64,000 bases of DNA from Candidatus Gemmiger stercorigallinarum. Its GTDB lineage: Bacteria > Bacillota > Clostridia > Oscillospirales > Ruminococcaceae. The notes under the pieces were generated by a model. The model was not told the origin of the DNA. It did no database searches and saw only the letters and a program-made list of their open reading frames with translations. Of this stretch, positions 2,017-34,848 are shown in pieces. Where the stretch lies: contig DWWX01000004.1 in the NCBI GenBank assembly GCA_019119495.1, positions 28,656-92,655 of the forward strand, written 5' to 3'. The position numbers and the translations under genes are program-made. The stretch's first letter is position 1. The number at the start of each line of letters is the position of its first letter.

Positions 2017-3936
2017 ATGAGAGAACAGCAGGCGGCGGCACTGCCCGCCTACACCGGGCGGGATCTGGGGGCTTCCTGGTCCAGGGAGCGCACCCTGTTC
2101 AAGCTGTGGGCGCCCACGGCGGCCGCGGTGCGGGTGATCCTGTACGCCACCGGCTCGGACGACGAGCGCGGCGCGGCGCTGTTGGGCAGCGTGATCATGC
2201 AGCCGGCCGGCCAGGGCGTGTGGCAGGCCCGCGTCCACGGCGACTGGAACGGCCGCTACTATGTCTATGCCCTGCAGTTCGACGGCACCGAGGGCGAGGT
2301 CCTTTCGGCCGACCCCTACGCCAGGGCCTGCGGCATCAACGGGCGGCGCAGCATGGTCATTGACCTGGCCGCCGCCGCGCCCGACGGCTGGGCGGACGAC
2401 CGCCGGCCCGACATCCCGCCCCACGCCCGCGCCGTGTGGGAGACCCATGTGGCGGATTTTTCCGCCGACCCGGCCGGCGGCGTGCCGGAGGCCTGGCGGG
2501 GCAAATTTCTGGGCTTTACGGCGCAGGACACCTGCCTGGACGGTGACCCGGCCAAACCCACCTGCCTGAACTACCTGAAACAGCTGGGCGTCAGCCATGT
2601 GCAGATCATGCCGATGTTTGACTTCGGCTCCACCGACGAGGCTGACCCCGACGCCTACAACTGGGGCTACGACCCGGTCAACTACAACGTCCCGGAGGGC
2701 GCCTACTCCACCGACCCCTGGCACGGCGAGGTCCGCGTGAAGGAATGCCGCGCCATGATCGCCGCCATCCACAAGGCCGGGCTGGGCGTGGTGATGGACG
2801 TGGTGTACAACCATACCTACCATGCCGACAGCTGGCTGGAGCGCACGGTGCCCGGCTACTACTGCCGCCGCACGCCGGACGGCAGCCTGACCAACGGCTC
2901 CGGCTGCGGCTGCGACATGGCCAGCGAGCGCAGCATGATGCGCAAATACATTGTGGATTCCTGCGTGTACTGGGCAAAGGAATACCATGTGGACGGCTTC
3001 CGCTTTGACCTGATGGCGCTGATCGACGCCGAGACGATGAACGCGGTGCGCGCCGCGCTGGACGCGCTGCCCGGCGGCGAGAACATTTTGATGTACGGCG
3101 AGCCCTGGATGGGCGGCGGCACCTGCATGGATACCGGCGCCCGACCCTCTGACAAAGGCGCGCTGGACGTGCTGAGCGACCGCATCGGCTTTTTCTGCGA
3201 CGGCACGCGGGACGCCATCAAGGGCGGCGTGTTCGACGCAAAGTCGGCGGGGTATGTCAACGGCGGGCTTTACTACGGCGTGCGCATTTTGCACGCGGTG
3301 GACGCCTGGCGGGACGGCGCCGACGGCTTTGCCCCCAAGGCCAGCGGCCAGGTGGTGCAGTATGTCTCCGCCCACGACAACTACACCCTGTGGGACAAGC
3401 TGAAACTGGTGGCCGGGCGCACCGGCTTTGCCGCCCCGGACGCCGACCTGCTGGCCCAGAACCGCATGGCGGCGGGCATTTACCTGACCTGCCACGGCCT
3501 GCCATTCCTGCTTTCGGGCGAGGAGTTTGCCCGCACCAAAAACGGCGACCACAACAGCTACAAGGGGCCGCTGGCCGTCAACCGGCTGGACTGGCGGCGC
3601 GCCGCCGACCTGAAACCGCTGGTGGATTTTTACCGCGGGCTGCTGGCCATCCGCCGCAGCCACCCGGAACTGTCCGGCGCGGCGGGGGAGACCGCCCCCA
3701 TCATGCTGGCCATGCCCGGCTGGCTGGTGGGCTTTGTGCTGGAAAAGGCCGGCGGAGACAGTGAGCTGGCGGTGTTCTACAACCCGGAAACGACCGTCCA
3801 GTGGGTGGATCTGCCCGCCGGCAGCTGGCGGTATCTCTGCGACGGCACCACTGCCCGGGCGGAGCCTTTTGGCGAGGTCCGGTCCGGCGGCGTGACGCTG
3901 GCGCCGGTCAGCGTGACCATCCTGGTGCGGGAATGA
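2017..3936 (+). CDS. pulA: Type I pullulanase / GH13 glycogen debranching enzyme
   Basis: YNWGYDPVNYNVPEGAYSTDP, GVVMDVVYNHTY, DGFRFDLMALID, YGEPWMGG, VSAHDNYTLWDKL. RBS AGAAGGAG before ATG 2017. Confidence 0.93.
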   Translation: MREQQAAALPAYTGRDLGASWSRERTLFKLWAPTAAAVRVILYATGSDDERGAALLGSVIMQPAGQGVWQARVHGDWNGRYYVYALQFDGTEGEVLSADPYARACGINGRRSMVIDLAAAAPDGWADDRRPDIPPHARAVWETHVADFSADPAGGVPEAWRGKFLGFTAQDTCLDGDPAKPTCLNYLKQLGVSHVQIMPMFDFGSTDEADPDAYNWGYDPVNYNVPEGAYSTDPWHGEVRVKECRAMIAAIHKAGLGVVMDVVYNHTYHADSWLERTVPGYYCRRTPDGSLTNGSGCGCDMASERSMMRKYIVDSCVYWAKEYHVDGFRFDLMALIDAETMNAVRAALDALPGGENILMYGEPWMGGGTCMDTGARPSDKGALDVLSDRIGFFCDGTRDAIKGGVFDAKSAGYVNGGLYYGVRILHAVDAWRDGADGFAPKASGQVVQYVSAHDNYTLWDKLKLVAGRTGFAAPDADLLAQNRMAAGIYLTCHGLPFLLSGEEFARTKNGDHNSYKGPLAVNRLDWRRAADLKPLVDFYRGLLAIRRSHPELSGAAGETAPIMLAMPGWLVGFVLEKAGGDSELAVFYNPETTVQWVDLPAGSWRYLCDGTTARAEPFGEVRSGGVTLAPVSVTILVRE

Positions 3937-3956
3937 CCCTGCGCCGCACAAAAGCA

Positions 3957-4006
3957 CAAAAGCGTTCCCCGCCGGCTGCGGTATGGCCGGCGGGGAACGC
4001 TTTTTG
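3957..4006. terminator. Bidirectional intrinsic terminator between pulA and lepA
   Basis: Perfect 16-bp stem AGCGTTCCCCGCCGGC/GCCGGCGGGGAACGCT flanked by AAAA and TTTTT. Confidence 0.85.
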
Positions 4007-4039
4007 TATGCTTTCGGGCTGGACGGGGCAAAACGGGCC

Positions 4040-5848
4040 TCAGCTGTCCGAGTCCAGCTTGAGGATGGCGGTGAAGGCCTCGCTGGGCAGGTTGACGGTG
4101 CCCAGCTTGCGCATCTTCTTTTTGCCTTCCTTCTGCTTTTCCAGCAGCTTTTTCTTGCGGGTGATGTCGCCGCCGTAACACTTGGCCAGCACGTCCTTGC
4201 GCATGGCCTTGACGGTCTCGCGGGCGATGATCTTGCCGCCCACCGCCGCCTGCACCGGCACCTCGAACAGCTGGCGGGGGATGTTCTCCTTCAGCTTTTC
4301 GCAGATGCGGCGGCCCTTGGCGTAGGCGTTGTCGGAAAAGACGATCAGTGAAAGGGCGTCCACCGGCTCGCCGTTGAGCAAAAAGTCCAGCTTGACCAGC
4401 TTGGACTCGTGCCAGCCTTCCAGCTCGTAGTCGTAGCTGGCGTAGCCGCGGCTGCGGCTTTTCAGCGCGTCGAAAAAGTCGTAGACGATCTCGCCCAGCG
4501 GCAGCTGGTAGTGCAGATCGACGCGGGTCTCGTCCAGGTACTTCATGTCCACCAGCACGCCGCGCTTCTGCTGGCACAGGTCCATCAGCGGGCCGACGTA
4601 GTCGTTGGGGGTGTAGATGTGGGCGTTGACGAAAGGCTCCTCCTGCTTGACGATGCGGGTGGGGTCGGGGTAGGCGGCGGGGTTGTCGATGATCTCCACC
4701 GTGCCGTCGGTCAGCGTCAGGCGGTACTGGACGCCGGGGGTGGTGGTGACCAGGTCCAGGTCAAACTCCCGCTCCAGCCGCTCGGTGATGATCTCCATGT
4801 GCAAAAGCCCCAAAAAGCCGCATCGGAAACCGAACCCCAGCGCGGCGCTGGTCTCCGGCTCAAAGCTCAAGGAGGCGTCGTTCAGCTGCAATTTTTCCAG
4901 CGCGTCCTTCAGGTCGGGGTAGTCGGCGCCGTCGGCGGGGTAGATGCCGCAGAACACCATCGGCGTCACCTCGCGGAAGCCGGGCAGCGGCTCGGCGGTG
5001 GGGTTGGCGGCCAGCGTGACGGTGTCGCCCACGCGGGTGTCCCGCACCGTCTTGATGCTGGCGGTCAGGTAGCCCACTTCGCCGGCCTCCAGCTTGTCGC
5101 AGGGGGTCAGGCTGGTGGCGCCCATGTGGCCCACCTCCACCAGCTGGAACTGGGCGCCGGTGCTCATCAGGCGGATGGTGTCGCCGGGCTTGACGCTGCC
5201 CTCGAACACCCGCACATAGACGATAACGCCCTTGTAGCTGTCGTAGATGCTGTCAAAGATCAGGGCTTTCAGCGGCGCGGCGGGATCGCCCTGGGGCGGC
5301 GGCACGTCCTTGACCACCCGCTCCAGCACGTCCCGGATGCCGATGCCCATCTTGGCCGACACCCGCGGCGCGTCCATGCAGGGCAGGCCGATCACGTCCT
5401 CCACCTCTTTGGCTGCCGCGTCAGGGTCGGCGCTGGGCAGGTCGATCTTGTTCAAGATCGGCACCACCTCCAGGTTGTGGTCGATGGCCAGGTAGCAGTT
5501 GGCCAGCGTCTGGGCCTCCACGCCCTGGCTGGCGTCCACCACCAGCACCGCGCCCTCGCAGGCCGCCAGGCTGCGGCTGACCTCGTAGGAAAAGTCCACG
5601 TGGCCGGGGGTGTCGATCAGGTTGAACTCGTATTCCTTGCCGTCGTCGGCGTGGTAGCGCATGGTCACGGCGCGGGCCTTGATGGTGATGCCCCGCTCCC
5701 GCTCCAGCTCCATATCGTCCAGGATCTGGTCCTCCATGGTGCGCTTGTCCACGCTGTCGGTCAGCTCCAGGATACGGTCGGACAGCGTGCTTTTGCCGTG
5801 GTCGATGTGGGCGATGATACAAAAGTTGCGGATGTTATCGCGTGCCAT
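4040..5848 (-). CDS. lepA: Elongation factor 4 (LepA)
   Basis: [31 protein letters not shown]-terminus, G-domain motifs and LepA C-terminal domain ([18 protein letters not shown]). Confidence 0.97.
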
Positions 5849-29785: not shown

Positions 29786-30253
29786 TCAGGGCAGGGGACG
29801 GCCGGCGCGGCGGAACATCCGGCGCACCTCGTCGGGGGTGCAGCGGAAATCCCCTTCGCCGCTGCGGCGGTAGGTGCCGGTCAGCGGGTCGCCGCCCACA
29901 TACACCGGGCGGTCCCGGCGGCTGGCGCGGGGCACCCGGATGACCACGATGCGTTTGCCCTGGCAGTCCTCCACCCGCACATGGCGGGGCTTCAGGATGT
30001 TGGCGCTGACAATGTTCGGGGCGTTGACCAGCACCCAGAAATCGTGCACCAGCTGCATCGGGTCGGGCAGCTCGATGGGGTGTAGGCTTTTGTCCGGCAG
30101 CTCCTCCACCCCCAGCAGGATCACCCCGCCCCAGGTGTTGGCAAAGGCGGAGTAGGTCTCCCAAATGCTGTGGGGCAGGCCGCCGTAGGCTTTTTTGGCC
30201 TCCAGCCGGTTGTTTTCGCGGCAGCGGCGCACGTCATAGTGCAGGTCAAACAT
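29786..30253 (-). CDS. Short AlbA_2 (Schlafen-type) domain protein
   Basis: ENNRLEAKKAYGGLPHSIWETYSAFANTWGGVILLGVEE; about 155 aa. Confidence 0.75.
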   Translation of the reverse strand: MFDLHYDVRRCRENNRLEAKKAYGGLPHSIWETYSAFANTWGGVILLGVEELPDKSLHPIELPDPMQLVHDFWVLVNAPNIVSANILKPRHVRVEDCQGKRIVVIRVPRASRRDRPVYVGGDPLTGTYRRSGEGDFRCTPDEVRRMFRRAGRPLP

Positions 30254-30281
30254 GGCAGCCTCCTTGGCGGCGGGCCGGCGC

Positions 30282-32330
30282 TCAGTCCTCGTCCAGGTCA
30301 AAGTCGCCGGGCAAAAGCAGCTCCAGCGAGGCGTCCGGGTCGGCCACCAGCCGCTTGGACTGGTTCAGGATGGCCCGCTCCACCACGTTGCGCGCCATGC
30401 GGCCGTTGCCGTTTTTGCCGGCGTCGGCGGCTTGCCGGCGGGCAAAGTAGTCTTTCAGCGGGGCCTCGCAGGCGGCGTCCAGCGCGTAGCCCTTGCCCTT
30501 TGCGATGGAGCCCGCGATCTGCCACAGCTGCTCGCCGGTATAGTCGGGGAACTCGATCTGGTTGGGGAAACGGCTGGCCAGGCCGGAGTTGGCGGTCAAA
30601 AACTGCTGCATCTCCCTGGTGTAGCCGGCCAGGATCACCACCAGGTCGTCCCGGTGGTCCTCGATGCCCTTGACCAGCGTGTCGATGGCCTCCAGACCAA
30701 AGCTGTCCTCCCGGCCGCGGTAAAGGCTGTAGGCCTCGTCGATGAACAGCACACCGCCCAGGGCGCTCTGGATCACCTGGTTGGTCAGCGGGGCGGTGTG
30801 GCCCACGTAGCGGCCCACCAGGTCGGCGCGGGTCACCTCCACCAGCTGGCCGCCCCGCAAGGCGCCGATGGCCTTGAGGTACTTGGACAAGATGCGGGCG
30901 ATGGTGGTCTTGCCGGTGCCGGGGTTGCCGGTAAAGATCATGTGCATGTTGACGCTGGCGGCCTGCAGGCCCTGGGCCTTGCGCCGCTGCTGGGCCTGCA
31001 CGTTTTTGGCAATGTCCCGCACAAAGGTCTTGACTTCCTCCAGGCCGATGATGCCGTCCAGCTCGGCTTCCACGGCGGCCACGTCGCCGCGGTACTGCTG
31101 GGGCAGCAGGTTCAAAAGGTCAAAGGGCTCGCCGCCGTTTACTGCGGCCATCAGGCGGCCGTCTGCCACTGTCAGCCGCATGGCGGTGCCGGCGGGCAGC
31201 GGTTCCTCGTGGTCCAGCACATACTCGGCAATGGCGCGGTAGGCGTCGTCGGCGTATTCCTGGATGGCGTCCACGCCGTTGGCACGGCCGTAGCGGGCGG
31301 CCAGGTGGTCCCGCACCGCCCCGTCGGCGGAAAGGGCCAGCCCGCACTGGGCGCGCACCTTCTGGGCCAGAGCGTTCAGCTCCCGCGCAGCGATGGCGTT
31401 CAGGCTTTCGGGTGTGAAGGGGGCGGTGCGGCAGATGTCGCCGGACAGCGCGTCCACAAACCGCGCGCCGAACCGCTCGGCCAGGGCCTCGGGGCCTTTG
31501 GAGGAAAAGAACACAAAGTATTTGCCGCCGGCCTGCAGCTCGCCCACCGCGCCGGGGGCCAGCGCGGTGCCCACATCCACCAGGATGCCCCGCTGCAGCA
31601 CATACCGGCTGGAAAGCGCCAGCGTGCCGTCGATGGCCAGCGTGGCCAGCATGTTCAAATAGGCCGAAGCGCAGCCCTCGTAATGGTCAAAGGCCAGGAT
31701 CTCGGCGTCCGACTGCAGCGCGGCGTACAGGTCCTGCAAAAACAGCTTTTCCTGCGCGGGGCCGGGGTAGAGCGAAAGATCCATCGTCTCGATCCTGGCG
31801 GCGGAGATCAGCCCGCGGGCGGCCAGTTCCTCGGCCACGCAGCGCAGGGCATAATGGCGGCCGGTGCCCTCGGCGCCGCACAGCAGCATGACGCTGCGGG
31901 CGCGGGCGGCGTCCGGCACGCCCATCACAAAGGGGCGGCGGAAGGCCTTGACCACCGCGCCCACAAACTCGTCCTGGCCCAGCACGCGGGTGCGCACCTG
32001 GTCCGCCAGGCCCACAAAATCGCCCCGCTTTTTGGCCGGCGCCGGCTTTTGGGGGGCGTTGTCCAGCAGGCCGTCCTTTTTCAGCGAAGCCGTCAGCTCG
32101 CTGCTCATGCGGCGGACGTTTTCCATAGTGGCGTCGGCGGCGCGGCCCACCGCGTCGGCCGCTTTGCCGGCGGCGGTGCGGCGTTTCTGGCTTTGGGCGG
32201 TCATCTCGTCCAGGGCGCGCTGCATCTCCTCCACGCTTTGGGCGGCGGCGTCCGCCTCCCGCTTGGTGGAAGCGCGGGCGGAACCCATTAGGTCGCGCAC
32301 CCAGGCGTCGTATTGGTCCTCAATGCTCAT
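30282..32330 (-). CDS. Two-module AAA ATPase (N-terminal degenerate AAA-like region + C-terminal CbxX/SpoVK-like AAA)
   Basis: C-terminal module: MIFTGNPGTGKTTIARIL Walker A, GGVLFIDEAYSLY Walker B, SGLASRFPNQIEFPDYT. N-terminal module has VMLLCGAEGTGRHYALR in place of a clean Walker A. Confidence 0.85.
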   Translation of the reverse strand: MSIEDQYDAWVRDLMGSARASTKREADAAAQSVEEMQRALDEMTAQSQKRRTAAGKAADAVGRAADATMENVRRMSSELTASLKKDGLLDNAPQKPAPAKKRGDFVGLADQVRTRVLGQDEFVGAVVKAFRRPFVMGVPDAARARSVMLLCGAEGTGRHYALRCVAEELAARGLISAARIETMDLSLYPGPAQEKLFLQDLYAALQSDAEILAFDHYEGCASAYLNMLATLAIDGTLALSSRYVLQRGILVDVGTALAPGAVGELQAGGKYFVFFSSKGPEALAERFGARFVDALSGDICRTAPFTPESLNAIAARELNALAQKVRAQCGLALSADGAVRDHLAARYGRANGVDAIQEYADDAYRAIAEYVLDHEEPLPAGTAMRLTVADGRLMAAVNGGEPFDLLNLLPQQYRGDVAAVEAELDGIIGLEEVKTFVRDIAKNVQAQQRRKAQGLQAASVNMHMIFTGNPGTGKTTIARILSKYLKAIGALRGGQLVEVTRADLVGRYVGHTAPLTNQVIQSALGGVLFIDEAYSLYRGREDSFGLEAIDTLVKGIEDHRDDLVVILAGYTREMQQFLTANSGLASRFPNQIEFPDYTGEQLWQIAGSIAKGKGYALDAACEAPLKDYFARRQAADAGKNGNGRMARNVVERAILNQSKRLVADPDASLELLLPGDFDLDED

Positions 32331-33463
32331 TGGTCGTTCTCCTCATTGGCACGGCGGGGCAGGCGGATGCGGTAAAAATTCTTGGCGCTGCAGCCGGCGC
32401 GGCCGCCGCCTGCGCAGGCGCAGGCACACGCGCAGGAAACGCAGGCGCAGGCGCACACGCAGCTGCCGTGGTGGCTGGTGTCCCGCCCGGCGCCGCCGCC
32501 GCGGGTCTCGCCGCCGCCTGCCTTGAAGCCCGGCGGCGGGTTGGAGGTATGGTAGCCTGCGGGCGGGCGGCTGCCCCGCGCCATGCGGATGTAGTTGGCG
32601 CCGTTATAGTACCAGACCCAGGCGGCCGGGTCGTAGCCGCCGCCAAAGCCGCCGCGCCAGCGGGCCGGCCGGCCGGCGTAAAAGATCGCCGCAAAAAACA
32701 GCACCACCAGCAGGGTCATCAGCGCCACCGCGCCGTCGTAGCGGCTGCCGGTGCTTTGGGGGCGGGCGGGGGTGTTTTCCTGGCCGGTCATGGCGTTGGC
32801 CGGGTCAAACACCTGCGCCGTGGTGATGGGCACCGTCACGTTGACGGTGGCGCGCTCGCCATGGGCCAGCGGGCCGAACTCCCACACCAGATAATCGCCG
32901 TCCACGCTGTGGTTGTCGGCCAAAAAGCCGTCATAGTTCCGCCAGCGCACCGTCAGGCTGTCCACGCAGATCTCGTCGAACCAGCCGGGGGTAAAGCTGA
33001 AACTGGCGGTGTCGTCGTCATTCTCGGTGAACAGATGGCTCTGGTGCACCCGGAAGCGGAAGCTGACCTCGCTCTCGCCGCCGTTCTGCGCCGCCACGTC
33101 GGGGGCGTAGTAATGGTCGTGGAAGGTCACCTGGGCATAACTGCCGCCTTCGGTCAGCAGGCTCACGTCGGCCACGGTGTCGGGGCTTAAGTTCTCGAAC
33201 TCGTCGGCATACTCGTTGGCCAGGCCGATGGTCACCCACGAGAGGGAATCCTCCGCCCCGCCGCCGATCACCTTCCAGTCGATCTCGTAGGTGATGTCGG
33301 CGCTGCCGTCCTGCCGGGGGTCCACCGTCACCACATAATTGGTGATCTCGTCGTAGTCGCCGGCGTCGGCAAAGGCGGCCGGGGCCAGCAGGGCGGCGGT
33401 CAAAAGCGCCGCCAGGGCCAGCGCCAGGCGGGCGGCCAGGCGGTGCAGGGGTCGTGTTTTCAT
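32327..33463 (-). CDS. Secreted/membrane protein with alternating Cys-X C-terminal tail (candidate radical SAM substrate or partner)
   Basis: Signal peptide LALALAALLTAALLAPAAFA, extracytoplasmic beta-rich domain, TM segment VALMTLLVVLFFAAIFYAG, tail GSCVCACACVSCACACACAGGGRAGCSAKNFYRIRLP. ATGA overlaps at both ends with neighbours. Confidence 0.8.
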   Translation of the reverse strand: MKTRPLHRLAARLALALAALLTAALLAPAAFADAGDYDEITNYVVTVDPRQDGSADITYEIDWKVIGGGAEDSLSWVTIGLANEYADEFENLSPDTVADVSLLTEGGSYAQVTFHDHYYAPDVAAQNGGESEVSFRFRVHQSHLFTENDDDTASFSFTPGWFDEICVDSLTVRWRNYDGFLADNHSVDGDYLVWEFGPLAHGERATVNVTVPITTAQVFDPANAMTGQENTPARPQSTGSRYDGAVALMTLLVVLFFAAIFYAGRPARWRGGFGGGYDPAAWVWYYNGANYIRMARGSRPPAGYHTSNPPPGFKAGGGETRGGGAGRDTSHHGSCVCACACVSCACACACAGGGRAGCSAKNFYRIRLPRRANEENDQ

Positions 33464-34848
33464 GCGTCCTCCTTCGGGCGGCGGGGGTCGCCCAGCTGGC
33501 AGAGATGTTCCATCCGTGCGCTGACGCGGCGGATGCGGCGGCAGTCGCTGCCGTTCCAGATCTTTTGCCAGGGCTGGTGCAGGATGTCCCCCAGCCCCGG
33601 CCCGGACAGCCAGCTCTGGCAGGGCAGCACGGTGCCGTCCGGCGCAACGGCCATGTTGGACAGGCAGGCCCCGCAGCTGGGGATCAGCGTAAAGCCCAGC
33701 GCCTGCAGCGTGCCTTCCGGCAGCCAGCCGGGGCTGGTAAACTCCAGCTCCATGGTGTTGTGGTCGGCCCAGGTCTTGGCGCTGCGCAGGGCGGCGGTCA
33801 GTTCTTCGGTGGAAAGCCGGGTGGCGATGCTGTCTTTCTGCACGGCGCCGCCGGCGGGGATCAGCCCGCTGCAGGTGGCATAGCGCACGCCCAGGCTGCG
33901 CACAAACTCCAGCGTGGCGCGGTAGTCCCGGTTCAGGCTGCACAGCGGCGTGTTGACGCTGACGTTCAGCCCGGCGGCCACGGCGTTGCGGATGCCGCTG
34001 ACCGTGTCCTCAAACCCCGGCGCGCCCACCAGCGCGTTGTGTACGGCGGGGTCGGCACTGTACAGCGTTACCTGCACGGCGTCCAGGCTGGCGTCGTACA
34101 GCTCACGGCAAAGGGGGGCGGTCAGCAGGCGGCCGTTGGTGTTCAGCCGGGTCACAAACCACTGGGCGGCCCGCACCAGCTTGACCAGGTCGTTGCGCAT
34201 GGTGGGCTCGCCGCCGGTAAAGGTCAGCTGCGGGATGCCTGCGTCGCGGCATTTCTGGATGACGGCCATCCACTGGTCGGTGTCCAGCTGGGGGGCCATG
34301 CCGTAGGGCTGGTGGGCGGCGTAGCAGTGCAGGCATTTCTGGTTGCACTGCCAGGCGCCGTCCTTCTGCATCGAGCTGACCATCAGGTCCATGCGGTGGG
34401 GGGCCTGCATGTGGGGGGCATACTGCCCCAGGTCCATGCGGGCCACCGGCAGCACCGGCGTGCGGCCCTGGGCAATGTCGCGGAAGGCGTCCAGCATGGC
34501 GGTCAGGTCGGCGCGGATCTGCTCGGCGGGGGTGCGGGTATAGACGGCAATGGTGTCGGCCACGGCCTGCTCCACCACGGCGTTCCACTGGCCGGGCTGA
34601 AGTTCCTGCCCCTCAAAGGGCTGCAGGGCGTCGATCAGGTTGGAAAGCAGGATCGCCCACGAGACGTTCAGCGGCAGGATATCCCGCCCGTTCAAAATGG
34701 CGACAAAGGGCACGTCCCGCCAGCCGCCGCGGCGGGGCACCAGGTGGATGCGCACCACGCCGGGCCCGCCGGGGTCCAGGGTGACATGGCGCACGGCGTT
34801 CAGCCGCTGACGGAGAAACCGGTTCTCCGCACGGGAAAGTAACGGCAT
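33460..34848 (-). CDS. Radical SAM protein with SPASM-like C-terminal Cys cluster
   Basis: CNQKCLHCYAAH (CxxxCxxC), LTFTGGEPTMRNDL, C-terminal SCGACLSNMAVAPDGTVLPCQSW...MEHLC. Confidence 0.9.
   Translation of the reverse strand: MPLLSRAENRFLRQRLNAVRHVTLDPGGPGVVRIHLVPRRGGWRDVPFVAILNGRDILPLNVSWAILLSNLIDALQPFEGQELQPGQWNAVVEQAVADTIAVYTRTPAEQIRADLTAMLDAFRDIAQGRTPVLPVARMDLGQYAPHMQAPHRMDLMVSSMQKDGAWQCNQKCLHCYAAHQPYGMAPQLDTDQWMAVIQKCRDAGIPQLTFTGGEPTMRNDLVKLVRAAQWFVTRLNTNGRLLTAPLCRELYDASLDAVQVTLYSADPAVHNALVGAPGFEDTVSGIRNAVAAGLNVSVNTPLCSLNRDYRATLEFVRSLGVRYATCSGLIPAGGAVQKDSIATRLSTEELTAALRSAKTWADHNTMELEFTSPGWLPEGTLQALGFTLIPSCGACLSNMAVAPDGTVLPCQSWLSGPGLGDILHQPWQKIWNGSDCRRIRRVSARMEHLCQLGDPRRPKEDA

Follow-up and report, generated by a model that had tools for sequence, protein, structure and literature searches.

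Most of what is known about radical SAM maturases concerns small peptides that are secreted. DUF2207 proteins, such as SMU.243, have a large extracellular N-terminal domain, a transmembrane (TM) segment and an intracellular Gly/Ser-rich C-terminal stretch, and the S. mutans DUF2207 protein affects stress tolerance and biofilm (PMC10457818). The nearest precedent for the locus described here comes from a 2025 survey (Microb Genom, PMC12452194), in which Cys-tailed TIGR04222 membrane proteins are proposed as MNIO substrates.

We analysed a stretch of DNA of 64,000 nucleotides (the window) in which a membrane protein carries a C-terminal tail of alternating Cys and Ala and the neighbouring gene encodes a radical SAM/SPASM enzyme. 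The comparisons presented below give strong reason to believe that this enzyme acts on the tail and modifies it, and they suggest that the two genes make up an undescribed modification system. A literature search, with most subscription journals outside its range, found no paper describing the tail motif, the top string matches being unrelated; combined-term searching gave nothing relevant, and no database family naming the pair was found.

Table 1. Positions of the genes and protein features at the locus, counted from the first letter of the window.
Feature	Position	Strand	Remark
Short protein with Schlafen/AlbA_2 domain (E 1.8e-10)	29786-30256	-	Downstream of the AAA+ gene
AAA+ ATPase, SpoVK/CbbX/EccA-like C-terminal module	30282..32330	-	ATG overlaps stop of the tail gene
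Gene of the 378-aa tail protein, which has a signal peptide, ectodomain, TM helix, linker and Cys tail	32327..33463	-	
Residues 334-364, SCVCACACVSCACACACAGGGRAGCSAKNFY: the conserved Cys-Ala tail, a putative substrate site	32372..32464	-	
The 18 residues first noticed, SCVCACACVSCACACACA (334-351)	32411..32464	-	ORF translation, exact map
Predicted TM helix, residues 241-263	32675..32743	-	
Ectodomain, about residues 34-230, beta-rich, weakly DUF2207-like	32774..33364	-	
Radical SAM/SPASM enzyme	33460..34848	-	ORF open from 34923; start codon set at 34848
Enzyme N-terminal domain, predicted RRE-like	34429..34848	-	Model, fold alignment, weak PqqD match

The Cys-Ala tail and its carrier protein

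A sequence-only reading of the window had described two back-to-back nine-residue Cys units followed, after GGG, by one more Cys. All 18 residues are present and map exactly to the positions in Table 1, within the context ...HHGSCVCACACVSCACACACAGGGRAGCSAKNFY... of the translated minus-strand ORF 32327-33463, and the additional Cys is C358. The division into nine-residue units describes this species and its closest relatives; elsewhere homologues vary by C-X dipeptides and have Ser interruptions, which rules out a tandem nine-residue repeat as the conserved unit. Of the two steps that the sequence-only reading suggested looking for, nine residues and two, the latter is the one by which homologues differ. 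Loss of Cys spacing in homologues, named there as a sign against the reading, was looked for and not seen in the last four Cys-Ala units or the Cys of GGGRAGC. Homologous arrays comprise 4-7 consecutive C-X units, optionally preceded by SSC, HSSC or VSC units (interruptions SS, HSS and VS), and the total number of Cys per tail ranges from 5 to 10 with a mode of 8. What varies is the part before a final stretch, CACACACA, that is fixed in homologues. The (C-X)4-7 run leads into CACACACAGGGRAGC[ST]xK[DN]FY, which hardly varies although its codons are diverse; in the last units, Ala separates the Cys almost without exception.

A whole-protein similarity search of 61 genomes recovered the tail protein in 31, counting its own genome, and all 31 belong to one genus. 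The tail was present at 30/30 genus loci examined, and 29 other genus genomes have a tail of the same kind in the same frame. When one genome from each species was scanned at the DNA level for C.C.CAGGGRAGC, at least 120 stretches matched, the true number of loci being larger; the matches listed fall in Lachnospiraceae, Oscillospiraceae, other Clostridia, Bacilli/Acholeplasmatales and Eggerthellaceae. The letters of the pattern are invariant by construction in loci chosen with it, and our claims are based on sets not picked by their tail and on positions outside the pattern. At such positions, among the matches listed, Cys and Ala occupy -2/-1 in 150/150 and Lys occupies +15 in 99%, counts that are not independent events since some genus members occur twice among the loci and genomes cluster by genus.

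The 39-nt core takes 29 distinct DNA forms among 30 genus members and 122 among 123 others (matches listed). With core DNA sequences nearly as numerous as genomes, it is the amino acids that are conserved, not a DNA repeat. Such codon diversity, together with the same-frame tails of 29 other genomes, rules out a frame artefact, and also the assembly error of which the sequence-only reading had warned. Ectodomains show a median identity of 30% across homologues, versus the near-fixed tail core. In class I, to which the window's enzyme belongs, the tail gives way to a further conserved segment and then to a variable stretch about 8-40 residues long.

In an AF2 model of the tail protein the ectodomain has pLDDT mostly >90 and a fold resembling ribophorin I and the M1 aminopeptidase N-domain; a Gly/Pro linker then leads to a disordered tail. 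Many Lachnospiraceae members have a zinc-ribbon-like module between the TM helix and the tail. Mean net charge in homologues is -3.3 before the TM helix and +1.5 after it, with the post-TM side more positive in 104 of 116. Because of this charge bias the tail should be cytosolic, and we predict from sequence that it is the cytosolic C-terminal end of a membrane protein. A surface-attachment role, which had been proposed as one option for the tail, is disfavoured by the same bias and by the placement of the tail after a signal peptide, an ectodomain and a single TM helix.

No Pfam or NCBIfam model matched the tail protein above cut-off. DUF2207 (PF09972) scored 12.6 bits for the window protein (cut-off 24.4 bits), and at E<=0.01 its profile picked up 6 of 56 homologues, the best with E 0.0015, all under the Pfam gathering cut-off; similarity at this level points to a related architecture, with family membership not confirmed. 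TIGR04222 (NCBIfam cut-off 43 bits) gave no match to the window protein and an under-cut-off score of 22 bits (E 1e-4) to one partner of a class III enzyme, a group defined below.

The radical SAM/SPASM enzyme and its pairing with the tail

The enzyme gene is directly upstream of the tail gene, and its TGA overlaps the ATG of the latter (ATGA). Both its core (Radical_SAM, PF04055; 70.5 bits, cut-off 29.5) and its SPASM region (PF13186; 35.0 bits, cut-off 21.5) exceed the Pfam cut-offs, placing the product among radical SAM/SPASM enzymes. Alignment of 60 sequences showed an invariant CxxxCxxC (C194/C198/C201, P0001 numbering) and more invariant Cys. The CxxCx5CxxxC part of the SPASM domain is present in classes II and III and lost from class I enzymes, the window's included, which have an invariant Cys in NTPLC instead. 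A profile search against solved structures ranked SkfB first (E 4.9e-22), then tetraether synthase, PqqE, BtrN, SuiB and others. SkfB was also first (E 2.8e-15) in a fold search with a model of pLDDT 93, where SuiB, BlsE, CteB and PqqE were likewise among the leading hits, and the fold alignments with the RiPP maturases SkfB, SuiB and CteB are near full-length. The N-terminal region is modelled as a beta-strand/three-helix unit whose only Pfam match, PqqD, is weak (E 0.12); a profile search of this domain alone against the PDB gave nothing useful. From the model, and weakly by sequence, we predict that it is RRE-like. None of the NCBIfam maturase equivalogs (SkfB, PqqE, StsB, PapB, WgkB and others) reached its cut-off, the best scores being 88.5 versus 500 bits and 82 versus 381 bits. 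Class II and III enzymes are likewise under the equivalog cut-offs, and no Pfam or NCBIfam family names the enzyme.

Among the matches listed there are 151 tail ORFs, 22 of them too near a locus edge to judge. The enzyme gene adjoins 128 of the 129 judged: 121 times upstream on the same strand, 5 times downstream and twice divergently. In several loci of this set, two or three tail genes share a single enzyme gene. The single exception (L060, minus strand 3631-4446) comes from a genome record of 1.7 Mb that lacks the enzyme, and its tail ORF has no signal peptide; a remnant or an incomplete genome may be the explanation. Enzyme and ectodomain distances correlate (Mantel r 0.91, 92 pairs), as they would if the pair travels together, and shared ancestry alone would also give such a correlation.

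Samples at three taxonomic levels bear on the same association. In the class sample of 246 genomes the enzyme is in 5 and the tail pattern in 4, all among those 5; in the fifth genome (G291, L157/L169) the tail gene is broken at a contig end and CACACAGGGRVGCS is on another contig. The enzyme gene of G291 has an in-frame TAA, and the other contig has a variant core, CACACAGGGRVGC. In the order sample, enzyme and tail occur in the same 8 of 31 genomes. The phylum sample, 399 genomes searched with the enzyme as only bait, gave 15 further homologues at 33-44% identity. An adjacent membrane-protein ORF was found at all 15, and CACACA-type tails were read in 14, the other being masked. Ten of these homologues form class II, whose tails are of the type CVSCACACVSCACACACA and, in eight, run in full to an ending GG[GR]GAGC; in the remainder, the locus end truncates the L188 array and the region of L186 is masked. 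The other five form class III, in which the tail is the C-terminus and reads CACACACACASSGGCT, CACACACACAGGGGCT or CACACACAGGGGCT.

A (CA)4 DNA pattern matched 18 of the same 399 genomes. Fourteen are enzyme genomes, and the only enzyme genomes without the pattern are the two with the cut and the masked tail. The matches in the other four are hexanucleotide repeats with no homologous tail, mostly Gln-Ala on the opposite strand. Genuine (CA)4 tails in this sample are found only in enzyme genomes. TGYGCN hexanucleotide repeats that mimic (CA)n DNA, as in L201, L203, L211 and L214, are a trap for motif scans.

Around the loci, no other gene family is shared. Peptidase and transporter or exporter genes are not conserved nearby, and neither is any metal transporter, chaperone or regulator gene. 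As with RiPP maturases, a putative dedicated substrate is encoded beside the enzyme; the short precursor with leader, the peptidase and the exporter of a classical RiPP cluster are missing, and the partner is a membrane protein of 300-500 aa, not a short precursor peptide. The AAA+ gene is conserved after the tail gene at each of the 30 genus loci, as well as in Fournierella, but not elsewhere, a distribution that rules it out as a general partner and makes it probably a lineage-specific accessory. One class II tail ORF (L198, minus strand 876-2735) continues stop-free into a TM segment and a TPM domain (E 3.7e-7), either as a fusion or as an overlapping second gene. Class III loci have a third gene after the enzyme gene (L189 2422-3315, L190 2478-3401), one of which weakly matches the toastrack DUF4097 (E 0.005). 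We rejected a mobile element as the source of the enzyme gene: no plasmid record carries it, and the lone 'phage' record appears to be bacterial DNA that carries this operon. That record (L234; MT837216.1, 7415 bases; 'UNVERIFIED: Bacteriophage sp.') has the enzyme, the Cys-tail protein and the AAA+ gene, and looks like mislabelled bacterial DNA because its tail sequence matches that of locus L011.

Proposed modification of the tail and its alternatives

We propose that the tail of the membrane protein would be the substrate of the enzyme encoded immediately upstream. The enzyme, which combines a predicted RRE-like domain at its N terminus with a CxxxCxxC SAM-radical core and with an auxiliary cluster region of SPASM type, would bind the tail in the cytosol. 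Through a 5'-deoxyadenosyl radical, the Cys thiols of (Cys-Ala)n would become intramolecular thioethers, sactionine- or ranthionine-like, and the product would be a rigid, stapled tail kept on the membrane-anchored protein, with no released peptide. In sactipeptides and ranthipeptides, the thioether joins Cys sulfur to an alpha, beta or gamma carbon. In favour of the proposal we count the adjacency and co-occurrence of the two genes, the loci where several tail genes share an enzyme gene, the ATGA overlap, the invariant tail positions that the scan pattern does not contain, the relation to SkfB and other maturases, and the prediction that the tail is on the cytosolic side, where the enzyme is. 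Counted against it are the loss of CxxCx5CxxxC in class I, the weak sequence support for an RRE, the one locus (L060) without the enzyme, and the lack of a peptidase or transporter.

As to the chemistry, sequence, structure prediction and gene neighbourhood together lead us to favour Cys thioethers, with some reserve. A thioether-modified strand was one of three options in the sequence-only reading, beside a metal-binding strand and the surface-attachment tail, and it is the best supported of the three because an enzyme related to thioether-forming maturases adjoins the tail in essentially every genome; the nearest solved relatives of this radical SAM/SPASM enzyme include thioether formers. 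The fold does not fix the reaction, because SkfB, SuiB, PqqE and anSME differ in chemistry on similar folds.

Radical SAM maturases with epimerisation-type reactions exist, and the enzyme might alter the tail by some such other radical reaction, for example by epimerising alternate residues of (Cys-Ala)n. An alternating L/D strand or helix would result, its Cys free for metal or disulfides. Dipeptide-wise variation of the array and the near-exceptionless Ala fit a rule acting on every second residue, but the closest structures include the thioether formers SkfB and CteB rather than known epimerases, and the most conserved residue is Cys, the classic thioether donor. We consider a reaction of this type unlikely.

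We find it harder to credit that the tail is a metal or Fe-S array (Zn, Cu, Fe-S), with the radical SAM protein assembling or using the site and the peptide left unchanged. The CxCxCxC spacing is metallothionein-like, and the zinc-ribbon-like module that precedes the tail in Lachnospiraceae members would be in keeping with metal. Conservation nonetheless extends beyond Cys to Ala, GGG, RAG and K, which exceeds what metal binding needs, and the loci lack a conserved metal transporter, chaperone or regulator gene. Because Ala, GGGRAG and Lys are near-invariant, a site of enzyme recognition and reaction fits better than a loose metal site.

It is very improbable that the modified tail serves as precursor for a peptide set free by a cut at GGG or by proteolysis, the membrane protein acting as the leader of a RiPP. 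A Gly-rich stretch does come directly after the array, and the class III tail is the end of its protein; against release, no peptidase or exporter gene recurs, and the class I tail is succeeded by its conserved segment and variable stretch. Functionless repeat slippage or misassembly can be dismissed, for although TGYGCN hexamer repeats occur in other genomes and array length varies by dipeptides, the idea is refuted by codon diversity (29/30 and 122/123 distinct core DNA sequences, matches listed), and the same core peptide occurs in Oscillospiraceae, Lachnospiraceae, Bacilli and Eggerthellaceae.

Returning to thioether formation by the adjoining enzyme, the locus apparently represents RiPP-type radical SAM maturation directed at the tail of a membrane protein. 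For the role of the modified tail we can only guess at a membrane scaffold or a function in stress or redox. It is conceivable, and we put it forward tentatively, that radical SAM enzymes repeatedly modify Cys-Ala dipeptides of cytosolic tails in at least two phyla, giving a rigid and permanent appendage that is multiply cross-linked or alternates in L/D configuration. If our proposal is true, radical SAM chemistry would also reach tails that cellular proteins keep permanently, here in common gut Clostridia. The pair would be a compact two-gene system with chemistry open to in vitro testing, and it would tie DUF2207/TIGR04222-like membrane proteins to unannotated SPASM enzymes, both of them orphan groups.

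Comparison with described systems

Like the TIGR04222/MNIO system (PMC12452194), the pair combines a large ectodomain, a low-complexity Cys-containing C-terminal tail and an adjoining gene for a RiPP-type modifying enzyme. In that system the enzyme is an MNIO and the association is loose, a third of genomes being without it, whereas here the enzyme is a radical SAM/SPASM protein and the association is near-obligate. The TIGR04222 tail is Ser/Gly-rich with scattered Cys and predicted to be periplasmic; the tail described here is a fixed Cys-Ala array predicted to be cytosolic. With DUF2207 (PF09972) proteins the tail protein shares weak Pfam similarity and the layout of ectodomain, TM segment and intracellular tail, but it is set apart by its fixed Cys-Ala array and by the pairing with a radical SAM enzyme.

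On the enzyme side, SkfB, the maturase of the sporulation killing factor sactipeptide (PDB 6efn), has the same radical SAM core, SPASM-type domain and N-terminal domain. Identity to SkfB is 19%, however, SkfB acts on a small peptide that is secreted, and its NCBIfam model scores 40.5 bits, far under the cut-off of 300. SuiB and CteB are high-ranking fold matches over most of the enzyme, yet SuiB, CteB and PqqE are only 13-18% identical to it and have other substrates, and the PqqE equivalog score is not reached.
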